Below are positions 11,281-62,902 of a stretch of DNA of 64,000 nt, in pieces (position 1 is the stretch's first letter; every line of letters starts with the position of its first letter). Source of the stretch: a virus. The notes beneath the pieces were generated by a model that saw nothing but the letters and a program-made list of their open reading frames with translations, did not search any database and had not been told where the DNA came from. The stretch lies in IMG/VR virus record IMGVR_UViG_3300042563_002923, positions 1-64,000 of that record. One strand, written 5' to 3'. A program made the position numbers and the translations under genes.

Positions 11281-11958
11281 ATGATATTTAATCATGTGAA
11301 TGTGAATAAATTTGAGACTTTGGAACAAATTACAAGAGAAGACGGTGTAAGATTTTATAAGACTCCTAGTGGTAATAGGTATCCTTCTATTACTACTATT
11401 CTCGGTGCTCAAAGTAAACAAGCCATACAAGAATGGCGCAAAAAAATAGGTGAGGAAGCAGCTAATAAAATTTCTAAGGCTGCTACAACACGAGGAACTA
11501 AGTTACACTCGTATATTGAGAATTATTTAAATAATAATGATGTGCTAAATGAAATGTCCTTCTTTCAAAAGGAACTTTTTTCAGGAATTCTGCCAGAATT
11601 GCACAAAATCAACAATATTCATGTACAAGAACAGAAATTATATTCAGATCACTTAAGATTAGCAGGCACAGTGGACTGTATAGGTGAATATGACGGCAAA
11701 TTGGCAGTCATTGACTTCAAAACTTCTGGTAAATTGAAGAAAAAAGAATGGATTCACAGCTACTTCATGCAATGCGCCGCTTATGCCATCATGTATGAAG
11801 AAAGAACTGGCATCCCAATCAGTAAATTGGTCATTCTTATCGCCGTAGAAGACGAAAATCCACAAGTTTTTGTCGAAAAACGTGATAATTGGGTAAAAGA
11901 ACTGCTAAAATGCCGAGATTCTTACGAAATGGACAACAACTTGTTGACTTTTTCCTAA
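11281..11958 (+). CDS. PD-(D/E)XK exonuclease (RecB/MGME1-like)
   Basis: A 225-aa nuclease-fold protein. YPSITTILG near the N-terminus, TRGTKLHSYIENYL (about residues 70-83), AGTVDCIGEYDGKLAVIDFK (with catalytic D, D and K) and HSYFMQCAAYAIMYEE (the QxxxY motif) are the ordered motifs of RecB-type PD-(D/E)XK exonucleases related to MGME1. It probably processes DNA ends during replication or packaging. The 3' end carries the -35 element of the tmRNA promoter. Confidence 0.85.
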   Translation: MIFNHVNVNKFETLEQITREDGVRFYKTPSGNRYPSITTILGAQSKQAIQEWRKKIGEEAANKISKAATTRGTKLHSYIENYLNNNDVLNEMSFFQKELFSGILPELHKINNIHVQEQKLYSDHLRLAGTVDCIGEYDGKLAVIDFKTSGKLKKKEWIHSYFMQCAAYAIMYEERTGIPISKLVILIAVEDENPQVFVEKRDNWVKELLKCRDSYEMDNNLLTFS

Positions 11959-11971
11959 AACCTGTTATAAT
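11944..11971 (+). promoter_or_regulatory. Sigma70-like promoter of the tmRNA gene
   Basis: TTGACT at 11944-11949, 16-nt spacer, TATAAT at 11966-11971 in CTGTTATAATATA. The expected start is near 11978-11980, just ahead of the tmRNA acceptor piece. The box overlaps the nuclease stop codon region. Confidence 0.8.
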
Positions 11972-11978
11972 ATATAAA

Positions 11979-12044
11979 ATATTGCTGTATGAAGCAAAGA
12001 GAAAAGTATTCTGGACGCGGGTGCGAATCCCGCCACCTCCACCA
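11979..12044 (+). ncRNA. ssrA: tmRNA, acceptor (3') piece of a permuted gene
   Basis: This piece encodes the T arm and CCA end of tmRNA but lies upstream of the coding piece. GCGGG (12017-12021) pairs with CCCGC (12029-12033) around a 7-nt T loop, followed by CACCTCC (12034-12040) and a genome-encoded ACCA (12041-12044). The block GGACGCGGG...CCCGCC is nearly that of E. coli tmRNA. CACCTCC pairs with GGGGGTG at 12133-12139 to form the 7-bp acceptor stem (one G-U). TATTCT (12007-12012) can pair with AGAGTA (12159-12164) as P2. The mature 5' end is uncertain. Confidence 0.85.
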
Positions 12045-12132
12045 AAAGTATTCTAAACTGGACGCAGGATCTGAGAAGGTTGAAAGTGGATTGATCACCA
12101 CAAGTATGCTGGAGATTAAGAATGCTTTTGAT
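12045..12132 (+). ncRNA. Intervening segment of the permuted pre-tmRNA
   Basis: This 88-nt spacer joins the CCA end of the acceptor piece to the 5' end of the coding piece and should be removed by processing. AAAAGTATTCT (12044-12054) can pair over all 11 positions, with one G-U, with AGAATGCTTTT (12119-12129), extending the acceptor stem into a long hairpin. An identical AAAAGTATTCT at 12002-12012 in the acceptor piece could compete for the same partner. Confidence 0.7.
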
Positions 12133-12300
12133 GGGGGTGCATAGTTTCGACAGGGTAAAGAGTAACAGAGTGGACAGCACATCAGCAACGATGTAAAAAG
12201 AAGAAATAAAGTAAACGCAAACGACTCACTGTTCGCATTGGCAGCCTAAACGCTGACTAGGGTTTCGGTTAGTTTCCTCGTAACAGAATAACTAACCATT
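12133..12300 (+). ncRNA. ssrA: tmRNA, coding (5') piece with tag reading frame
   Basis: It starts GGGGGTG (12133-12139, acceptor strand) followed by CATAGTTTCGACAGGG, the conserved 5' tRNA-like segment. ACATC/GATGT (12179-12183 with 12190-12194) is a candidate PK1 stem. The tag frame starts at the resume codon GCA (12217) and ends with TAA at 12247-12249, encoding ANDSLFALAA, the expected type ending in ALAA. Downstream GGTTAGTT (12267-12274) pairs perfectly with AACTAACC (12290-12297); ACTAG (12256-12260) can also pair with TTAGT, suggesting PK2 or an end structure. tmRNA rescues stalled ribosomes and tags the nascent chain for proteolysis. Confidence 0.88.
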
Positions 12301-12322
12301 TTATTAACAAATCTACAAACAG

Positions 12323-12853
12323 ATGAAATCATATACACAATCATTTTTAGTAGCAGTATCCGCAATATTATTAATTTCAATTTTCACACAAGTAACGACA
12401 TCAAAACTACACAATTTAAAACAAACCAACTTTGACGACACTAAAGCAACCGTTGCAGTCAGAGAACAACAATTAGATTGTTTAGCAAAAAATATCTACC
12501 ACGAAGCAAGAAGCGAACCCTTTGAGGGCAAAGTTGCTGTAGCTCAGGTCACAATGAATAGAGCAGCAAATGCTGGATTTCCAAATGATATTTGCAAAGT
12601 AGTTTATCAAAAGAACATAGTGTATGAAAAAGTGATTTGCCAATTCAGTTGGTATTGCGAGACATCTACAAAAACAAAACCAATCCACCAATCTGCATAT
12701 AAAGAATCCTATGAGGTAGCTAAGAAAGTTTTACTTGAAGGATTCCGATTAGCAGGATTAACTGAAGCACTTTATTATCACGCAACTTACGTTTCACCTG
12801 GTTGGAAACGTCAACAAATCGCAAAAATTGGCAACCACATTTTTTACAAATAA
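12323..12853 (+). CDS. SleB-type cell wall hydrolase with N-terminal anchor
   Basis: A 176-aa protein with a hydrophobic segment at residues 8-26 (signal anchor or uncleaved signal), then a Hydrolase_2 (SleB/CwlJ) domain. AKNIYHEARSEPFEGKVAVA carries the catalytic Glu region, followed by QVTMNRAANAGFP and FSWYCE. Such enzymes act as lytic transglycosylases or muramidases on peptidoglycan. An N-terminal anchor would allow sec-dependent export, as in signal-arrest endolysins. The start has only a weak ribosome binding site, 23 nt after the tmRNA coding piece, so it may be translated from the same transcript. Confidence 0.82.
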   Translation: MKSYTQSFLVAVSAILLISIFTQVTTSKLHNLKQTNFDDTKATVAVREQQLDCLAKNIYHEARSEPFEGKVAVAQVTMNRAANAGFPNDICKVVYQKNIVYEKVICQFSWYCETSTKTKPIHQSAYKESYEVAKKVLLEGFRLAGLTEALYYHATYVSPGWKRQQIAKIGNHIFYK

Positions 12854-12856
12854 ATT

Positions 12857-13162
12857 ATGAAATATCCAACACTACAAGATGTTATTAACTATTGCAAAAC
12901 AACATTAACGGTTGCAACTGCAGAAACAATTGCATGGATTGGCATTGTTCTTATTCATGCCGCAACTATACCCACAATGATTTCAATCATGTCTGGTCTA
13001 TCAGATAAGATGCCACCCGTTGATCTTATTTTGTTTATCTGGGCAGGACTTTCAATGTTATTTGTGCGAGCAGTAATTCTTAAAGACATTCTTCACATTG
13101 TAACTATTGGTGTAGGATTTATTATTCACTCCGTGCTTCTTGCTTTAATACTATTTAAATAA
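12857..13162 (+). CDS. Holin-like membrane protein, three TM segments
   Basis: 101 aa with three hydrophobic spans, about residues 22-44, 54-72 and 77-99, and a short charged N-terminus. Size, topology and position right after a cell-wall hydrolase fit a class I-type holin, which makes membrane holes to release the GH19 endolysin. No family signature is recognised, so holin is an inference from context. The heme oxygenase gene begins 3 nt after its stop. Confidence 0.65.
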   Translation: MKYPTLQDVINYCKTTLTVATAETIAWIGIVLIHAATIPTMISIMSGLSDKMPPVDLILFIWAGLSMLFVRAVILKDILHIVTIGVGFIIHSVLLALILFK

Positions 13163-13164
13163 TC

Positions 13165-13692
13165 ATGGCTACATTAAAAGAACAAACACAAGAAAAACAT
13201 AAAGAAGCGGAAACTCAACCGTTTATCAAAGAGATTTTTCAAAAGAAAGTTAGCAAACACAAATATGCTGAATATCTGTATCAGCTTTATTTGATCTATC
13301 ATGCTATGGAAAATATTGCAGGTCCTAAATTAGGTGCATACGAGGGTATCTCAGGTCTTTACAGATCTAAGGCAATTTTTGAAGATTTTCAGGAATTGGC
13401 TGTACCAGATAAAACATATACGATTAAAGAATCTACATTAAAATACATTCAATATATTATGGATATTACTGAGCATAATGATTTGGTTGCACATATGTAT
13501 GTACGATACTTAGGCGATTTAAACGGTGGTCAAATTTTTGCTAAACTTATTCCGGGCTCAGGTACAATGTTTCAGTTTGAAAACAAAGAAGAATTGACAA
13601 ATAACTTCCGTGCTAAATTAAATGACAACATGGGGGCCGAAGCATGCGTTGCATTTGACTTTAATATTGCAATAGTTAAGGAATTTAACTAA
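13165..13692 (+). CDS. ho1: Heme oxygenase (biliverdin-forming)
   Basis: A 175-aa heme oxygenase, which opens heme to biliverdin, CO and ferrous iron using O2 and electrons from ferredoxin or another donor. The distal-helix signature AHMYVRYLGDLNGGQ (residues 109-123) matches the family HxYxRYLGDLSGGQ block, including the Asp and glycines that order water over the heme. His12 in QEKHKEAE fits the proximal heme ligand. It is shorter than cyanobacterial HO1 (about 240 aa), mainly at the C-terminus. Its stop shares a base with the start of the bilin reductase (TAATG), so the two are one operon. Confidence 0.92.
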   Translation: MATLKEQTQEKHKEAETQPFIKEIFQKKVSKHKYAEYLYQLYLIYHAMENIAGPKLGAYEGISGLYRSKAIFEDFQELAVPDKTYTIKESTLKYIQYIMDITEHNDLVAHMYVRYLGDLNGGQIFAKLIPGSGTMFQFENKEELTNNFRAKLNDNMGAEACVAFDFNIAIVKEFN

Positions 13693-14372
13693 TGTCTTCG
13701 GTATGGGATACATTAATTAAGATTGAACAATATCTTGAATATAAATTTTACGCAACTGGTAGCATTATACACGAACCGGCAATGGAGCGTTTTAATCAAC
13801 CCGGATGGGTAAATAAAGTATGGACCAGTAGCCGATACCGCAGAGCACACATTGACGTAGTAGATGCTCGTGAAACCAAAGGGCTGTGGATGATGCATTG
13901 TTGCATCTTTCCTCATACACACAATCCTGCCCCCATCTTTGGGTTTGATGTTATAGCAGGAAAAAACAAGATCACCGGTTGTTTTATTGATTATAGTCCT
14001 GCGGGCGATGTAAACCATCCCATGATTAAATATTTTGGTGAAGAAGTTGGAAAATACGAATGGAATAAAAAACGCAAACTACCCGAATGGGCCGAACGTA
14101 TTTTCAGTGAGCACATGGTAGCTGCCGGTAACGTAAGTGATGACAATGAATTAAAACAACTCACAAGTCTAGCACATATATTAGTTAATCATTACTTGGA
14201 CACAGTAGACGAAACTAATAAAACTGCTAACAATACAACACGTGAACAGAACTACTATTGTGAAAATCAAAAACAAAATCCACATACTCCTAAAGTTATG
14301 GTTAGTCTAGGGCTTAGTGAAAATGATGTTCAGCATTTTATTCAAGAATGCTTGTTCCCAGAAATTAGCTAA
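13692..14372 (+). CDS. Ferredoxin-dependent bilin reductase (PcyA/PebS/PcyX-type)
   Basis: A 226-aa FDBR, an enzyme class that reduces biliverdin to phycobilins with ferredoxin electrons. MMHCCIFPHT and APIFGFDVIAG are core blocks. His69 and Asp86 are 17 residues apart, as are His88 and Asp105 of PcyA. ITGCFIDYSPAG and YYCENQKQNPHT near the C-terminus are further family blocks. The second Asp-containing loop of PcyA/PebS (NDKT type) reads N196-P197-H-T here. The short length and single core Asp fit the viral PcyX group better than PcyA; this is inference. The product (phycoerythrobilin or other) cannot be decided by eye. It is coupled to heme oxygenase. Confidence 0.88.
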   Translation: MSSVWDTLIKIEQYLEYKFYATGSIIHEPAMERFNQPGWVNKVWTSSRYRRAHIDVVDARETKGLWMMHCCIFPHTHNPAPIFGFDVIAGKNKITGCFIDYSPAGDVNHPMIKYFGEEVGKYEWNKKRKLPEWAERIFSEHMVAAGNVSDDNELKQLTSLAHILVNHYLDTVDETNKTANNTTREQNYYCENQKQNPHTPKVMVSLGLSENDVQHFIQECLFPEIS

Positions 14373-14398
14373 TTAGGATAAATTGGTTAATATATCTA

Positions 14399-14427
14399 TT
14401 GAAAATTTACACGGTTTACTATATAAT
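14399..14427 (+). promoter_or_regulatory. Sigma70-like promoter upstream of gp33
   Basis: TTGAAA at 14399-14404, 17-nt spacer, TATAAT at 14422-14427. It is followed by AAGGAAAAAG and the gp33 ATG at 14454. It separates the gp33/gp59/gp32 run from the bilin genes. Confidence 0.7.
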
Positions 14428-14453
14428 ATAGTAAATAAGGAAAAAGAAATCGA

Positions 14454-14732
14454 ATGCTAGAAATGTTAGAACCAGAAACAAAAGAGACATTAACCGATGC
14501 TCTAATTATTACTAAGAGATTTAGATCGCCTAATGAATTTTCTCTCTACATTGAAGAAAAAGTATTACAAGACTCAATTGGATATATGGATGCAGTAATT
14601 GCGTATTGTAACGATATCGATATTGATGTTGAAGCAGTTACAAAATTGATAAATCAATCTCTAAAAGATAAAATTCAAAATGAAGCCGAAGATCAAAACT
14701 ATATGAGACCAAGGGGCAAATTGCCGTTATGA
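14454..14732 (+). CDS. gp33: Late promoter coactivator gp33
   Basis: A 92-aa protein of the T4 gp33 type, which links the sliding clamp to RNA polymerase at late promoters. Typical features are FRSPNEFSLYIEEKV, then YMDAVIAYCNDIDIDVEAV, and the C-terminal NYMRPRGKLPL, the conserved end seen in cyanophage gp33. It directly precedes gp59 and gp32 as in T4. It overlaps gp59 by 4 nt. Confidence 0.85.
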   Translation: MLEMLEPETKETLTDALIITKRFRSPNEFSLYIEEKVLQDSIGYMDAVIAYCNDIDIDVEAVTKLINQSLKDKIQNEAEDQNYMRPRGKLPL

Positions 14733-15331
14733 TAATGGATGAATTCTCAGTTTATAAAATGTATATTGCGCTTAAATTACATTTTACAACAGATGCGTAT
14801 GATGTTATTAAACAAAAGGGCAGAGTACGTGCAAGCCGACAAGCATTTGCCAAACGTACCGACTTATTTTCAATTAAAAAGATATCAAAAAATTATTCAG
14901 ATGAAGAGGTCGCAAACTTCTTAGTTGCAAATTTTGTGTCAGGTGATCGTTGGGGCGGGATGTTTGATATAGAAGCCGGACAACGATATACATTATGGAA
15001 AAAGAAAATCGAGAGTTTATCATATAATTTTTCACAAGATTTGGACAACTTGATCCAAGAATGTGAGGATTCTAATATAGATCTAAAGTCAATATTTACA
15101 GTATCTAAAGGGCAACATCCATATATAATAAAAGCATTTTTAAGAAAAACAATTGGAATTGAAACACTTGTTATCTTAGAACGGCTCACCGGGTTTATTA
15201 AAACTTTTGATGCTGAAATTAATGACACAATAGTGTGGCCTGATATTTCTAGACTTATTAAAAAGTATAAACCATTTTTAGTAATAGATATGGAAAAATA
15301 CGATGCAATCTTTAGACGACGACTTGGCTGA
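14729..15331 (+). CDS. gp59: Loader of gp41 helicase, gp59
   Basis: A 200-aa, all-helical protein like T4 gp59 (217 aa), which binds forked DNA and gp32 and loads the replicative helicase. MDEFSVYKMYIALKLHF and FSIKKISKNYSDEEVANFL followed by FVSGDRWGGMFD are the recognisable N-terminal blocks. ISRLIKKYKPFLVID lies near the C-terminus. The position between gp33 and gp32 matches T4. Starts at 14729 and 14735 are both possible; the former gives the ATGA overlap. Confidence 0.88.
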   Translation: MIMDEFSVYKMYIALKLHFTTDAYDVIKQKGRVRASRQAFAKRTDLFSIKKISKNYSDEEVANFLVANFVSGDRWGGMFDIEAGQRYTLWKKKIESLSYNFSQDLDNLIQECEDSNIDLKSIFTVSKGQHPYIIKAFLRKTIGIETLVILERLTGFIKTFDAEINDTIVWPDISRLIKKYKPFLVIDMEKYDAIFRRRLG

Positions 15332-15545
15332 ATCTAAAAAAGAATTAGATATTTCTAGAAATAGAATTAAAAAATTAGAAGAGCATATTACAATGATGCA
15401 GGAATTATTATCACACCAACAAGAATCAATTACCGAAACACAAAGGTATTTGATTAAAGTTGCACATGGGCAAAAAGAACTCAGTAAAAGAGTATTGTCT
15501 TGGCCGTTTATTAAAGTCCAGACAAGAAAAACAAAAGATGTTTAA
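15303..15545 (+). CDS. Coiled-coil protein, 80 aa
   Basis: Begins inside the 3' end of gp59 (29-nt overlap) in another frame. Residues 5-55 have a heptad pattern (LDISRNRIKKLEEHITMMQE), indicating a coiled coil, followed by a basic end. No family is recognised. Its place between gp59 and gp32 suggests a replication-associated or regulatory partner, without direct evidence. Confidence 0.6.
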   Translation: MQSLDDDLAESKKELDISRNRIKKLEEHITMMQELLSHQQESITETQRYLIKVAHGQKELSKRVLSWPFIKVQTRKTKDV

Positions 15546-15559
15546 TAGTTTATTTTAAA

Positions 15560-15751
15560 ATGAATAAGTTAAAGAAAAATGAAGGTTACTACGACAAAGA
15601 GAAAAAGCTTCGTCGTGTTGAAAAGGGTACCTCAAAGATTGACAAACATCGAAAGATTATATATAATGTAGCATCATTGCAAAAAGACGATGATGTATTT
15701 GATGAATATCTAGATTATGCATACGCAAATCAAAAAATTAAACGACGTTAA
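15560..15751 (+). CDS. Small basic protein, 63 aa
   Basis: A highly charged, lysine/arginine-rich protein (MNKLKKNEGYYDKEKKLRRV; ends YANQKIKRR) without a known domain. The net positive charge suggests nucleic-acid contact. Located just upstream of gp32 in the replication run. No clear Shine-Dalgarno is seen. Function unknown. Confidence 0.6.
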   Translation: MNKLKKNEGYYDKEKKLRRVEKGTSKIDKHRKIIYNVASLQKDDDVFDEYLDYAYANQKIKRR

Positions 15752-15790
15752 TACTACGCACATACTACGCCAATACGAAAGGAACTTATC

Positions 15791-16711
15791 ATGGCATATA
15801 CTTCACTAGCAGATCTACGCAAATCTCGCGGAGGCTTCGATTCATTAATGAAAGAAGTTGAAAAGATCGCAAATCCCCAATCCGACTCTAAAAAATCAGA
15901 CGATCGCTTCTGGCAACCAGAAGTTGATAAAGCAGGTAACGGCTATGCTGTTATTCGCTTCTTGGCTCCACCTCAAGGTGAAGACTTGCCGTTTGTTCGT
16001 GTTTGGAATCACGGATTTCAGGGACCTACAGGTAAATGGTACATCGAAAATTCGTTGACCACTATCGGTAAACAAGACCCAGTTTCAGAACTCAATACTG
16101 AATTGTGGAACTCAGGTTCAGAAGCAAATAAAGAAGTTGCTCGCAAACAAAAGCGCAAGCTTACATACTACGCTAACATTCTTGTTGTTAAAGACCCCGC
16201 TCGACCAGACAATGAAGGCAAAGTTTTCTTGTTTAAATTCGGCAAGAAAATTTGGGATAAGGTTAAAGACATGGCTGATCCTCAGTTTGAAGATGAGAAA
16301 CCAGTTAATGTATTTGACTTTGACACAGGTGCAAACTTCAAGTTGAAGATTCGCAATGTTGAGGGGTATCGTAATTATGATAAATCTGAATTTGAATCAC
16401 CTAGCCCAATCTCAAATGAAGATTCGGTTATTGAGAAAATTTGGGGACAACAACATTCTTTAACAACATTCTTGGATGCTAAGAACTTTAAGTCATATGA
16501 TGATTTAAAGAAGAAACTTACTATGGTTTTAGCTGCAGGTGCACCTCCAGTAAAGCCCGCAGAAAATGTTGATCTAGATGAAGACATTGGTTCAAAGCCA
16601 ACACAAGCATCCGCCCCTCGCGCATCAGTTCCAACTCCTAAACAGGATGTGAACTTTGATGATGATGCGGAATCACTATCATACTTTGCTAAATTAGCAA
16701 GCGACGATTAA
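15791..16711 (+). CDS. gp32: Single-stranded DNA-binding protein gp32
   Basis: A 306-aa gp32 with the T4 order. The N-terminal basic part (SLADLRKSRGG) is for cooperativity. The OB-fold core includes YAVIRFLAPPQGEDLPFV and VWNHGFQGPTGKWYIEN. FDFDTGANFKLKIRNVEGY with NYDKSEFESP follows, and an acidic tail (NFDDDAESLSYFAK) is for partner binding. The protein contains no cysteine, so the CxxC-type zinc site of T4 gp32 is absent; the region reads GKQDPVSELNTELWNSGSE as in cyanophage gp32. GAAAGGAAC precedes the ATG. Confidence 0.93.
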   Translation: MAYTSLADLRKSRGGFDSLMKEVEKIANPQSDSKKSDDRFWQPEVDKAGNGYAVIRFLAPPQGEDLPFVRVWNHGFQGPTGKWYIENSLTTIGKQDPVSELNTELWNSGSEANKEVARKQKRKLTYYANILVVKDPARPDNEGKVFLFKFGKKIWDKVKDMADPQFEDEKPVNVFDFDTGANFKLKIRNVEGYRNYDKSEFESPSPISNEDSVIEKIWGQQHSLTTFLDAKNFKSYDDLKKKLTMVLAAGAPPVKPAENVDLDEDIGSKPTQASAPRASVPTPKQDVNFDDDAESLSYFAKLASDD

Positions 16712-16723
16712 TCGGAGACTATA

Positions 16724-16999
16724 ATGACTCTAAAAGAAACAGCAATTGCTTTTCTAGCTACATTTGCAATGGCCCATTCCGGGTTCGCTGCAGATGCAAC
16801 GAGTACGCCCGAAAAAAAGAAGGAACCGGTGAAGACGCAGAAAGCGAAATCACCGGAGCCGACAGCAACACCGGGTGTTCGCAAGATAGAAAAGAAACCT
16901 AAAGAAGATAAACCTGCAGAAGCAGGAGCTGAAAAACCAGCAACGCCGAAGGTTAAACGACCTGAAGAGTTAAAGGCTGAAAAAGAAGCTAAGAAGTAA
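16724..16999 (+). CDS. Exported Lys/Pro/Glu-rich low-complexity protein, 91 aa
   Basis: An N-terminal signal peptide (TAIAFLATFAMAHSGFAAD; cleavage after AFAA-like Ala at about 22-23) is followed by about 68 residues of low-complexity Lys, Pro, Glu, Ala and Thr repeats (KKKEPVKTQKAKSPEPTATP). The mature part is disordered and highly charged. It follows gp32 with a GGAG-type site and is closed by a strong terminator. Function unknown; periplasmic placement is likely. Confidence 0.65.
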   Translation: MTLKETAIAFLATFAMAHSGFAADATSTPEKKKEPVKTQKAKSPEPTATPGVRKIEKKPKEDKPAEAGAEKPATPKVKRPEELKAEKEAKK

Positions 17000-17003
17000 A
17001 AGA

Positions 17004-17029
17004 AAAGCCCGGGAGACCGGGCTTTTTTT
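17004..17029. terminator. Bidirectional Rho-independent terminator
   Basis: AAAGCCCGG (17004-17012) pairs with CCGGGCTTT (17017-17025) around a 4-nt loop, with T runs on both strands. It closes the + strand gp32 transcript and the - strand tail-gene transcript that converge here; the T run touches the stop codon of the minus-strand gene at 17028. Confidence 0.9.
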
Positions 17030-18539
17030 ATGTGTATGCACTTCTATTTAATTGCCATTTAACAAACGTATTATCGTTTGAATGAGGTACTGGAGTTGCA
17101 GCCATCGTTGTTTGTTCTGTATTGTTTATCGTTTGTTTTGATATGATAGGTGCAATCATTTGTGTTTCCGGTTGTCCGGTATTAAACATTTTTAATTCTG
17201 TATTTTGATCTGTTACTTTGTTTAATATGTCAACCCCGGTTGTTTCTTCTTTTTTAGGTGCAACGGTTGAATTAATTTTTGGGTTTATTTCTGGAATATA
17301 ATCGTATTTTCGTAACGAAGATTGTTCAAATTTCTTAGGCGGTTCAACATCTATATCTTCTTCGGTTGGCGAATCAAAAGATGGTATGCCTGCTTTCTTT
17401 CTAAGTGCAGCCTCACCACCGAATGCTTCCAAATCTCTTTTTTTGCCGGGGGAATCCGGTTGATTCAATATATCTTGTGCTTGCTGTTGTGTCACATCTA
17501 AATTACTAAAGTCTGCATTTATATTTTTAAATGCCTTTTCCGCATCTTGCCCTTGGCCTTCTTTCATTCTATCGCCGTAATCAATATCGTCCAAATATTC
17601 GTTTGCTTCGTATGCACCTAGCCCTACTGTCGCGGCTGCTGCAATCGGACTGCTTACTATGGCTGCTGTACCCATTAATGCAGCCCTACCCATTAATGCG
17701 GCCTTGCCCATCATCGGACCCATGCCCGGCATTGAGCCGCCTGGCACTCTCGGCGTCTTGGGCAATTTGCCACCCGGACCACCGGGTTTATTTTTTCCCG
17801 GTCTTTCAGGCAAATCGAAACCCATAGGCATACCCGAATTAGAACCAAACCCGCTTTCCTGTAATATTGCTCCCAATTTTATAGCTATCAGTTCAGATAA
17901 TTTTTCCCGATCTTCCTGTTTTGATTCTTCTATATTTGGTTCAATACCATTGGGTAATTGATTTGCTTTATTTTTTTCTATTATTAACTTTTTAATGGCA
18001 CTCGCTTCTTCCAATAATTGTTTTTGAGACTTATCATCCCGCATGTCAATTAATACCGCGACCATATCGGATAAAACTTTATTTTGTTCTATATTTTCGT
18101 TTAAAGCAATATTATCTTGTGCATTAGTTCTTGTTAGATCTGTTGGTGAAATAATTTCAGTATTAATATCTGCGGAATCTTGTGTGGGTTTACCAATTTC
18201 AGGTGGCATTACCACTTTTCCAGATAGATAACTTATAGTATCTTTAGCGGATTTTACATATGATGATAGTTGCTCAGTAAACCCGGCTTTAAAATCTTTA
18301 TAATCTTCTTTTAAATCAATTCCAATTGGTCTTCCGGGTTTTCCTGGGTCTTCTTTTTCCGATTTACTTATACCTGCTCTTTTTTCAAGCGCAATAGCAA
18401 GATTCAAAATAGAAAGATTAAGATTTTTAATATCTTTAGATGTGCCCGTCATCTTTTCAGACAATTCTACAAAAGGGCTTTTCTCTCCCTCTATAATTGA
18501 GGACAGCCTATCCATTGGATCTTGTATTGCGTTTGCCAT
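17028..18539 (-). CDS. Virion protein, candidate tape measure, 503 aa
   Basis: Mostly helical N-terminal 240 residues (LSSIIEGEKSPFVELSEKM; ALEKRAGISKSEKEDPGKPG). A Gly/Pro/Met-rich hinge follows (GGPGGKLPKTPRVPGGSMPG), then a small-residue hydrophobic stretch (ALMGRAALMGTAAIVSSPIA, about residues 280-305). The C-terminal region is polar and disordered-like. No enzymatic motif is recognised. It lies downstream of gp26, the gp51-like frame and a membrane protein, where many tailed phages place the tape measure after the tail chaperones. T4 gp29 is 590 aa. The tape-measure role is inference. Confidence 0.7.
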   Translation of the reverse strand: MANAIQDPMDRLSSIIEGEKSPFVELSEKMTGTSKDIKNLNLSILNLAIALEKRAGISKSEKEDPGKPGRPIGIDLKEDYKDFKAGFTEQLSSYVKSAKDTISYLSGKVVMPPEIGKPTQDSADINTEIISPTDLTRTNAQDNIALNENIEQNKVLSDMVAVLIDMRDDKSQKQLLEEASAIKKLIIEKNKANQLPNGIEPNIEESKQEDREKLSELIAIKLGAILQESGFGSNSGMPMGFDLPERPGKNKPGGPGGKLPKTPRVPGGSMPGMGPMMGKAALMGRAALMGTAAIVSSPIAAAATVGLGAYEANEYLDDIDYGDRMKEGQGQDAEKAFKNINADFSNLDVTQQQAQDILNQPDSPGKKRDLEAFGGEAALRKKAGIPSFDSPTEEDIDVEPPKKFEQSSLRKYDYIPEINPKINSTVAPKKEETTGVDILNKVTDQNTELKMFNTGQPETQMIAPIISKQTINNTEQTTMAATPVPHSNDNTFVKWQLNRSAYT

Positions 18540-61062: not shown

Positions 61063-61088
61063 ATGTAGTATAAATTCTCGGAGATATG

Positions 61089-61958
61089 ATGGCAAAATTG
61101 AAAATATCAGAACTATTTTATAGTATTCAGGGCGAAGGTAGATACATGGGAGTTCCTTCCGTGTTCTTAAGAACATTTGGTTGCAACTTTACTTGCGACG
61201 GATTTGGAATGGCAAAGGGTGAAAAGAGTAATGAAAGAAATGTTATTGCAATTAAAGCTGATAGCTTTACTACCTATAAAGATCTTCCTCTTGTTCATAC
61301 AGGTTGCGACTCTTATGCTTCTTGGGATCCTCGGTTTAAGCATCTTAGCCCTGTACTCTCTACTGATAGCATTACCGATACAATTATGGATATATTACCG
61401 CACAAGAGGTGGGAAGACGAACATCTTGTAATTACAGGCGGTGAACCTTTATTGGGTTGGCAAAAACAATATCCTGAATTATTAGATAATGAAAAGATGT
61501 CAGGGCTAAAAGAAATAACATTTGAGACAAATGGTACTCAAGCATTAACATCTGAATTTAAACAATATCTTTTAAATTGGACATTGAGTAATAAAAATAG
61601 ATCAACTAAAAGAGGTGAAGATGCTTTAACATTTTCAGTCTCTCCTAAATTGTCTGTATCCGGTGAAAAGTGGGAAGACGCTATTTGCCCTGAAATTGTT
61701 GCAAGTTATGAATGGTGCGGATATACTTATCTTAAATTTGTAATTAGTAATCAACAAGATGCTGAAGAAGCAGAGGAAGCAGTAAATGCATATCGTAAAG
61801 CTGGTTTTGCGGGTCCTGTGTATCTTATGCCTCTTGGTGGTACTGAGCAGTTGTACTCTATTAATAATAGGAATGTTGCAGAACTCGCAATGCGAAAAGG
61901 TTGGAGATACTCAGATAGACTCCAAATCCCATTGTTTAAAAACGCATGGGGAACATAA
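61089..61958 (+). CDS. queE: 7-carboxy-7-deazaguanine synthase QueE-like (radical SAM)
   Basis: A 289-aa QueE-like radical SAM protein; GGAG at 61080-61083 favours ATG 61089 over 61086. ELFYSIQGEGRYMGVPSVFL, then RTFGCNFTCDGFG carries the first two cluster cysteines (C32, C36 from this start). The expected CxxC third cysteine is absent. The next cysteine, in HTGCDSYASWD, comes 36 residues later. ITGGEPLL (SAM-binding GGEP) and FETNGTQAL, then SVSPKLSVSG and YLKFVISNQQDAEEA follow the QueE order. It makes CDG in the preQ0 route with FolE and QueD. It overlaps the next gene by 1 nt. Confidence 0.85.
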   Translation: MAKLKISELFYSIQGEGRYMGVPSVFLRTFGCNFTCDGFGMAKGEKSNERNVIAIKADSFTTYKDLPLVHTGCDSYASWDPRFKHLSPVLSTDSITDTIMDILPHKRWEDEHLVITGGEPLLGWQKQYPELLDNEKMSGLKEITFETNGTQALTSEFKQYLLNWTLSNKNRSTKRGEDALTFSVSPKLSVSGEKWEDAICPEIVASYEWCGYTYLKFVISNQQDAEEAEEAVNAYRKAGFAGPVYLMPLGGTEQLYSINNRNVAELAMRKGWRYSDRLQIPLFKNAWGT

Positions 61959-62155
61959 TGGTAAATAGTATAGTAGATCAAATTACGCAATATGGATTCA
62001 ATGCTACCGATAAGTATATGGATGGCTTTTATCAATTTGGAAATAAGCAAAAACTGTATGAAATAATGTGGGAAGCGCAACGACAATTAAATCGGTGTGA
62101 CACATTTGCAGGCGAAGAAGAATGGGTTACTGAAAATCTCCCAAAATATAAATAA
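61958..62155 (+). CDS. Small hypothetical, 65 aa
   Basis: Starts in a TAATG overlap with queE (ATG 61958 rather than the ATG at 61946 inside queE). The product is small, helical and acidic (VDQITQYGFNATDKYMDGFY; LYEIMWEAQRQLNRCD). No domain is recognised. Close coupling suggests co-expression with queE and folE. Confidence 0.6.
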   Translation: MVNSIVDQITQYGFNATDKYMDGFYQFGNKQKLYEIMWEAQRQLNRCDTFAGEEEWVTENLPKYK

Positions 62156-62215
62156 TAATGTTACACAAAGGTAACAACTTTCAATTATCATATCCGTGTT
62201 AGGAAGGATTCAAAA

Positions 62216-62902
62216 ATGTCATATAACAAAACAAAATGCGACCCCGAGTTGGGTTTAAGAGTTCACGATTACTTAGTTAAATGTGGAGTAGAAACGCCTA
62301 TTAAAGAAACAGGCCAAGTCATTGATCGTAAAGGTAAGATTGACGTAATCGAATCTTTATTTACAGATATTATGAAAACACTTGGACTTGATCTTACAGA
62401 TGATAGTCTTATTGACACACCTAAGCGTGTTGCTAAGATGTATGTAAATGAAATCTTTTGGGGACTCGACTATGAGGCATTCCCTAAATGTACAACCGTT
62501 GACAATAAGATGCACTATAACGAAATGGTTGTAGAACGCAATGTTAATGTACAATCTAATTGTGAGCATCACTTCGTTGTAATTGATGGACTAGCAACTG
62601 TTGCTTATGTTCCTAAACAACGAGTACTTGGTCTGAGTAAAATTAATCGTATTGTTGAATATTTCAGCAAACGCCCACAGATTCAAGAACGTTTAACCGA
62701 ACAAATTTTCCATACGCTACAATTTATTCTTGATACTGAAGACGTTGCTGTATTGATTGATGCACAACACTATTGTGTTAAATCTAGGGGCGTTGAGGAT
62801 ACAGGAAGTTCAACTGTTACAAGTAAGCTGGGTGGTGGATTCAAAACTGATCCAGCGGCAAGAGCAGAATTTTACCAGATTGCAAGACAAGGATGTAAAT
62901 GA
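62216..62902 (+). CDS. folE: GTP cyclohydrolase I (FolE)
   Basis: A 228-aa GTP cyclohydrolase I, which converts GTP to dihydroneopterin triphosphate, the precursor of folate and of 7-deazaguanines. DTPKRVAKMYVNEIFWGLDY, NVQSNCEHHFVVIDG (zinc Cys and His region), VLGLSKINRIVEYFSKRPQI with QERLTEQI, and DAQHYCVKSRGVED (second zinc Cys and catalytic region) are diagnostic. Next to queE it points to phage preQ0 or deazaguanine DNA modification; queC and queD are not seen in the window. AGGAAGG gives a ribosome binding site. Confidence 0.94.
   Translation: MSYNKTKCDPELGLRVHDYLVKCGVETPIKETGQVIDRKGKIDVIESLFTDIMKTLGLDLTDDSLIDTPKRVAKMYVNEIFWGLDYEAFPKCTTVDNKMHYNEMVVERNVNVQSNCEHHFVVIDGLATVAYVPKQRVLGLSKINRIVEYFSKRPQIQERLTEQIFHTLQFILDTEDVAVLIDAQHYCVKSRGVEDTGSSTVTSKLGGGFKTDPAARAEFYQIARQGCK

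Follow-up and report, generated by a model that had tools for sequence, protein, structure and literature searches.

A ferredoxin-dependent bilin reductase (FDBR) gene, located directly behind a heme oxygenase (HO) gene, is on its own swapped between near-identical phages, as we observed in a comparative analysis of 64,000 nucleotides of viral DNA (hereafter the window, 64 kb out of the 66.6-kb virus record IMGVR_UViG_3300042563_002923) and its relatives from IMG/VR. The hemO-pcyX pair as such is already known from phages of this kind, the isolated pelagiphage Mosig included, and the cassette together with its alaS extension has been published and tied to pelagiphages via this isolate (PMC11480375). 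For the exchange of the reductase we found no description in the literature. In the reading that we favour, with a probability of roughly 60%, the two genes would constitute an early-expressed heme-to-bilin module, driven by host ferredoxin and carried by a T4-like myovirus that infects a host outside the cyanobacteria, and its role would be the clearing and reduction of biliverdin.

Identity of the two enzymes

The two open reading frames cover exactly positions 13165–13692 and 13692–14372 of the plus strand and overlap in a TAATG, as proposed in the first-pass annotation of this DNA. The first one, hemO, encodes a heme oxygenase of 175 amino acids, which matches the Pfam family Heme_oxygenase (PF01126) with 91 bits and E=1e-25, far above the curated cut-off. 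Its AlphaFold model (pLDDT 94.4) has heme oxygenases as top structure matches, with a TM-score of up to 0.86 and of 0.85 for HmuO. All features of the HmuO/HO-1 type, i.e. the proximal histidine, the distal GDxxGGQ helix and the HO fold, are present: the distal motif GDLNGGQ is located at residues 117–123, His12 is the predicted proximal heme ligand, and both His12 and GD..GGQ are unchanged in 80 of 80 related cassettes.

The second gene, pcyX, encodes a reductase of 226 amino acids with Asp55, His69 and Asp86. It matches Fe_bilin_red (PF05996) with 67 bits and E=2.7e-18, again far above the curated cut-off, and scores 220 bits (E=2e-64) against the solved PcyX 5owg (EBK42635), versus 64 bits against PcyA. 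The same 5owg is the top PDB match of its AlphaFold model (pLDDT 85.5, Foldseek E=3e-13), and both the FDBR fold and the family features of PcyX are found in the window enzyme. In the phylogenetic tree it falls with 5owg and the Mosig reductase into the PcyX clade (support 100/100), apart from cyanophage PcyA and from PebA, PebB and PebS. The first-pass annotation had noticed a resemblance to the viral ho1-pcyX arrangement and named a position beside cyanophage PebS or PcyA as the outcome that would speak against it; sequence, tree and active site agree in identifying the reductase as a PcyX. Within this clade, 5owg, which has been characterised, and the reductase of Mosig form another branch, separate from that of the window and about 48% identical, and in the literature we found no assayed enzyme of the window's own subclade.

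In the alignment Asp55 of the window enzyme occupies the position of PcyA Glu76. At residues 55, 69 and 86 the PcyX-type rows all have Asp/His/Asp and those of cyanophage and Synechocystis PcyA Glu/His/Asp, while the PebS, PebA and PebB rows have Asn at position 69. Identity with PcyA was rejected on account of Asp, not Glu, at the Glu76 position, and identity with PebS on account of His rather than Asn at residue 69 and the position outside the PebS clade. The motifs AHMYVRYLGDLNGGQ and APIFGFDVIAG, as well as His69 and Asp86 of the reductase, lie where the earlier reading had placed them and Asp55 is present too; these key residues are invariant in 80–82 related cassettes, a set biased to PcyX-like sequences. 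PcyX makes phycoerythrobilin (PEB), and Asp55 is its specific catalytic residue, a phage enzyme without it (CB_2) making PCB (PMC11480375). From the PcyX residues Asp55, His69 and Asp86 we infer PEB as the product of the window enzyme.

Both genes are under purifying selection, with pN/pS of 0.11 for HO and 0.07 for the reductase relative to the nearest distinct relative (L006); in distant pairs, synonymous substitutions have reached saturation.

Organization of the locus and phage backbone

The features from the first promoter to gp32 are all located on the plus strand. An extended sigma-70-type promoter, TTGACT-16-TATAAT (11944–11971), with 11 of 12 consensus positions and TG before the -10 element, is the probable early promoter of a unit which ends with hemO and pcyX. 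This unit begins with a permuted, two-piece tmRNA gene with the tag ANDSLFALAA (11983–12249, or 11952–12340 according to ARAGORN; Rfam tmRNA_permuted 125 bits, beta_tmRNA 106 bits, best of the clan), followed by an endolysin-like cell-wall hydrolase (12323–12853; PF07486, E=2.1e-25, phrog_938) and a hydrophobic protein of 101 amino acids (TM101, 12857–13162). The latter, of membrane character by inspection and with no match in Pfam or PHROG, is kept in the window lineage with 92–97% identity (L004–L008 and L140–L146). Between pcyX and gp33 there is a putative sigma-70-type promoter, TTGAAA-17-TATAAT (14399–14427), which in this context accompanies Asp55 alleles of the reductase and is absent with Glu55 alleles. 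It is followed by genes for a gp33-like late-transcription coactivator (14454–14732; PF16805, E=2.2e-21), a gp59-like helicase loader (14729–15331; PF08993 and PF08994, phrog_269) and the gp32 single-stranded DNA-binding protein (15791–16711; PF08804, E=3e-46). Matches to the sigma-70-type pattern in the window number 13 versus 2.1 expected, and the promoter sequences suggest early expression of the cassette by the host polymerase.

The window contains T4-type replication, transcription and structural genes, and its backbone is T4-like, resembling those of Mosig and Melnitz. Among the window open reading frames scanned, which represent an incomplete genome (the record is a fragment, the genomes of relatives reaching about 141 kb), no photosystem, phycobilisome or other photosynthesis gene was found, nor psbA or another such gene beside the bilin genes, in agreement with the first-pass annotation. 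At 61086–62902 a QueE-like radical SAM protein adjoins GTP cyclohydrolase I; the two are part of the 7-deazaguanine pathway, the purpose of which here is perhaps DNA modification.

Exchange of the reductase gene

The relatives in IMG/VR number several hundred (564 confirmed candidates, contigs of up to 364 kb), and one of them, contig G433 (locus L140), is collinear with the window across most of its length. In blastn the two align at 12287–13718 (88% identity) and at 14445–17267 (84%), with nothing alignable between, and in this stretch G433 carries a reductase with Glu55. The identity of the encoded proteins is 90% for HO and 95% for gp33 versus 45% for the reductase, and the pair L006/L143 behaves likewise (HO 97%, gp33 97%, gp59 99%, reductase 44%), both alleles, Asp55 and Glu55, being found in each of two backbones. 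The exchanged segment, with approximate boundaries at 13711–14444 on the plus strand, is absent at the DNA level from L140 and L141, where a Glu55-type reductase is inserted between the same flanks. The upstream crossover corresponds to the TAATG overlap and the first reductase codons, which are common to both alleles, and the downstream one is located just before gp33; there, Asp55 alleles in this context have the promoter-bearing spacer, and the 3' end of Glu55 alleles overlaps gp33. In three further loci (L011, L021 and L026) the relation is the converse, the reductase being 83–90% identical to that of the window and HO only 44–48%. A difference in evolutionary rate alone was rejected as the source of the contrast between HO and FDBR, given 90–97% identity of HO and gp33 next to 44–45% for the reductase in both pairs. 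An assembly chimera is unlikely, because each allele was seen in several independent assemblies.

The tree of wider scope places the Asp55 enzymes in a phage clade (100/100) that holds the Glu55 enzymes too, the latter as a group inside it (98/96, with one member having another residue 55) and apart from cyanophage PcyA. Since the Glu55 alleles are overall closer to PcyX than to PcyA (162 vs 46 bits), their product is uncertain and the swap may leave it unchanged. We tentatively propose, at slightly less than even odds, that the reductase slot behind hemO serves as an exchange site, where PEB-forming PcyX with Asp55 and a type which is PcyA-like at residue 55 and perhaps PCB-forming would be swapped by homologous recombination in near-identical phages of heterotrophs. 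Alternatively, the exchange might result from selection, dependent on host or light, for a single chromophore.

Conservation and neighbourhood of the cassette

In the search starting from the reductase, which is biased to PcyX-like sequences, HO adjoins in 78 of 80 loci, the two exceptions being located near contig ends. When the search started from HO, a reductase was nearby in 74 of the 78 loci with sufficient room, and His69 and Asp86 are retained in all 74 of these cassettes, residue 55 being Asp in 38, Glu in 31 and another one in five. Reductases with Ser, Gln, Val or Asn at residue 55 adjoin HO in L188, L149, L178, L194 and L218; they are neither PcyX- nor PcyA-like and their product is unpredictable.

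Genes for DnaK, Hsp20 and/or ClpS, identified by Pfam, are located upstream of HO in 51 out of 61 distinct cassettes. All three, as consecutive genes, immediately precede hemO-FDBR in L009 (6673–9460), in most of L009–L082 and in most phages outside the window lineage, contigs of 345–364 kb included, and the phage ClpS could redirect the host ClpAP. Curli genes CsgF/CsgG follow downstream in 26 of the cassettes; in L010 (12251–15216), and likewise in many such phages, CsgF, CsgG and a curlin-repeat protein are encoded downstream of the reductase. Curli pores have reportedly been noticed before in pelagimyophages and Melnitz. Among 32 longer cassette-bearing records alaS is present in 11, though absent from the window's own 66.6-kb fragment, and a phytochrome in none, which argues against a phage-encoded phytochrome, a candidate that we rejected. 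A plant-type ferredoxin was found among the cassette-bearing records in Mosig only, and a phage ferredoxin was accordingly dismissed as the general electron donor. Similarly rejected was a conserved 2OG-Fe(II) oxygenase beside HO, confirmed by Pfam in Mosig only.

Comparison with known systems

The nearest isolate, and the only one in which we found the cassette, is Mosig EXVC030M (MT647606), a T4-like myovirus of a non-cyanobacterial host which, as the window, has overlapping hemO and pcyX in this order and a reductase with Asp55/His69/Asp86. The identity with the window proteins is 48% for the reductase and 32% for HO, and the pair is located between 2OG-oxygenase and neck-protein genes, whereas that of the window lies between the tmRNA-hydrolase block and gp33-gp59-gp32; genes for a ferredoxin and for a putative ferrochelatase were found in Mosig but not in the window record. 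PcyX EBK42635, being the best match in both sequence and fold, has the same catalytic residues at aligned positions. The hemO-pcyA/X cassette of freshwater phage CB_2, compared by its description, is likewise non-cyanobacterial and combines HO with an FDBR of the PcyA/PcyX group; it differs from the window in having alaS and a PCB-making reductase without Asp55 (PMC11480375). In Melnitz EXVC044M the gene order PhoH-PDDEXK-tmRNA-gp33-gp59-gp32 is like that of the window but without the cassette, and its whole genome contains no FDBR.

Host

The major capsid protein of the window is nearest to that of Methylophilales phage Melnitz (68%), the portal is about equally close to Pelagibacter phage Mosig and to Melnitz, and the tmRNA fits best the betaproteobacterial model of Rfam. 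These backbones and the tmRNA favour a host outside the cyanobacteria, as considered in the first-pass annotation, whose description of the host of ho1-pcyX as unclear has been partly overtaken: an isolated pelagiphage, Mosig, carries the cassette, and alphaproteobacterial phages are treated in PMC11480375. We regard the host as non-cyanobacterial, probably proteobacterial and perhaps betaproteobacterial, the last with about an even chance. The tmRNA of Melnitz, a phage of OM43, fits the alpha model, versus the beta model in the window, and occurs with a glutamine riboswitch; as Melnitz carries a tmRNA type unlike that of its host (PMC9004378), the type can mislead on the host.

A scan of 84,980 genomes of bacteria and archaea gave no instance of the exact tag ANDSLFALAA. 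Related phages have the tags ANDSQFALAA and ANDEQFALAA, and similar tags (ANDEQFALAA) are found in Rhodocyclaceae, Limnobacter, Uliginosibacterium and others. Eight of nine similar-tag loci checked have a one-piece tmRNA; the permuted form was seen in L094 only, a 3-kb contig (CAIMTR010000195.1) of a gammaproteobacterial MAG from a lake, which carries seven tRNAs beside its permuted tmRNA of beta type and may belong to a phage and have been mis-binned. Limnobacter's order, searched in 399 genomes, also has permuted tmRNAs of this layout (L115–L118, L120), but the matches were only short and did not lead to a host. No FDBR was found in these 399 genomes.

Possible role of the cassette

For the describers of the three-gene cassette, the purpose of phycobilins in phages of non-photosynthetic bacteria is "still enigmatic" (PMC11480375). 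In the course of events that we consider most plausible, a host sigma-70-type promoter would drive early transcription of hemO-pcyX along with the phage tmRNA, HO would cleave the heme of the host, giving biliverdin IX-alpha, CO and Fe(II), and the adjacent reductase would reduce biliverdin by four electrons, predictably to PEB. Electrons for both enzymes would come from host ferredoxin, because no ferredoxin gene was found in the window's record. Selection would act on both steps as a unit, with the type of reductase exchangeable behind the same HO, and the reduction of biliverdin as such would draw HO forward and yield a reduced, antioxidant bilin.

Alternatively, HO might free iron from host heme for iron enzymes of phage or host, with the reductase only averting product inhibition. 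Iron supply is discussed in PMC11480375, in Mosig three genes with the annotation 2OG-Fe(II) oxygenase immediately precede the pair (two of three confirmed by Pfam), and a reductase of exchangeable type behind one HO would suit such a subordinate task. Yet the reductase is almost never lost and always keeps His69 and Asp86, and HO alone seems insufficient, since it rarely occurs without a reductase. The oxygenase neighbour is not conserved either, the HO-adjoining proteins of L011 and L026 having no Pfam match. Heme made only to free iron is unlikely because alaS accompanies many cassettes: new heme would give back the same iron without net gain. Pure iron release is thereby weakened, and we consider it unlikely, albeit deserving some weight.

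Supply of a chromophore to a host photoreceptor or bilin-binding globin, with PEB or PCB blocking or retuning a phytochrome-type sensor during infection, seems to us rather improbable. The phytochrome PHY domain is present in 42 of the 399 genomes of Limnobacter's order, and PEB locks phytochromes; moreover, the product of CB_2 PcyA assembles a phytochrome (PMC11480375). However, a phytochrome is missing from about 90% of those genomes and from all 32 phage records. The alternation of different reductase types at one locus behind one HO, unlike what a fixed sensor partner would require, also lowers the likelihood of a chromophore dedicated to one receptor. A cyanophage cassette for phycobilisome pigments, with its photosynthesis genes outside the sequenced portion of the genome, is very improbable, for although the record is a 66.6-kb fragment, ho1 with pebS or pcyA occurs in cyanophages and the nearest structural genes include cyanophage ones (53–67% identity), the reductase lies outside the cyanophage PcyA and PebS clades, the capsid is best matched by Melnitz and the tmRNA fits the beta model.

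The linkage of HO with reductase, the company of alaS and the alternating reductase types therefore lead us to favour biliverdin reduction as such. The near-absence of reductase-less HO, the frequent alaS and the company of chaperones and ClpS narrow the possible roles, and the exchange of the second enzyme is a hint that what matters may be something other than the precise pigment. Phage pairs which differ at the reductase and have the same HO and flanks, e.g. L006/L143, offer matched genes for testing the importance of pigment identity. Should different pigments be the products of the two types, the phage would need biliverdin reduction coupled to HO, or a bilin that is easily retuned, rather than a chromophore fixed for light harvesting or sensing.
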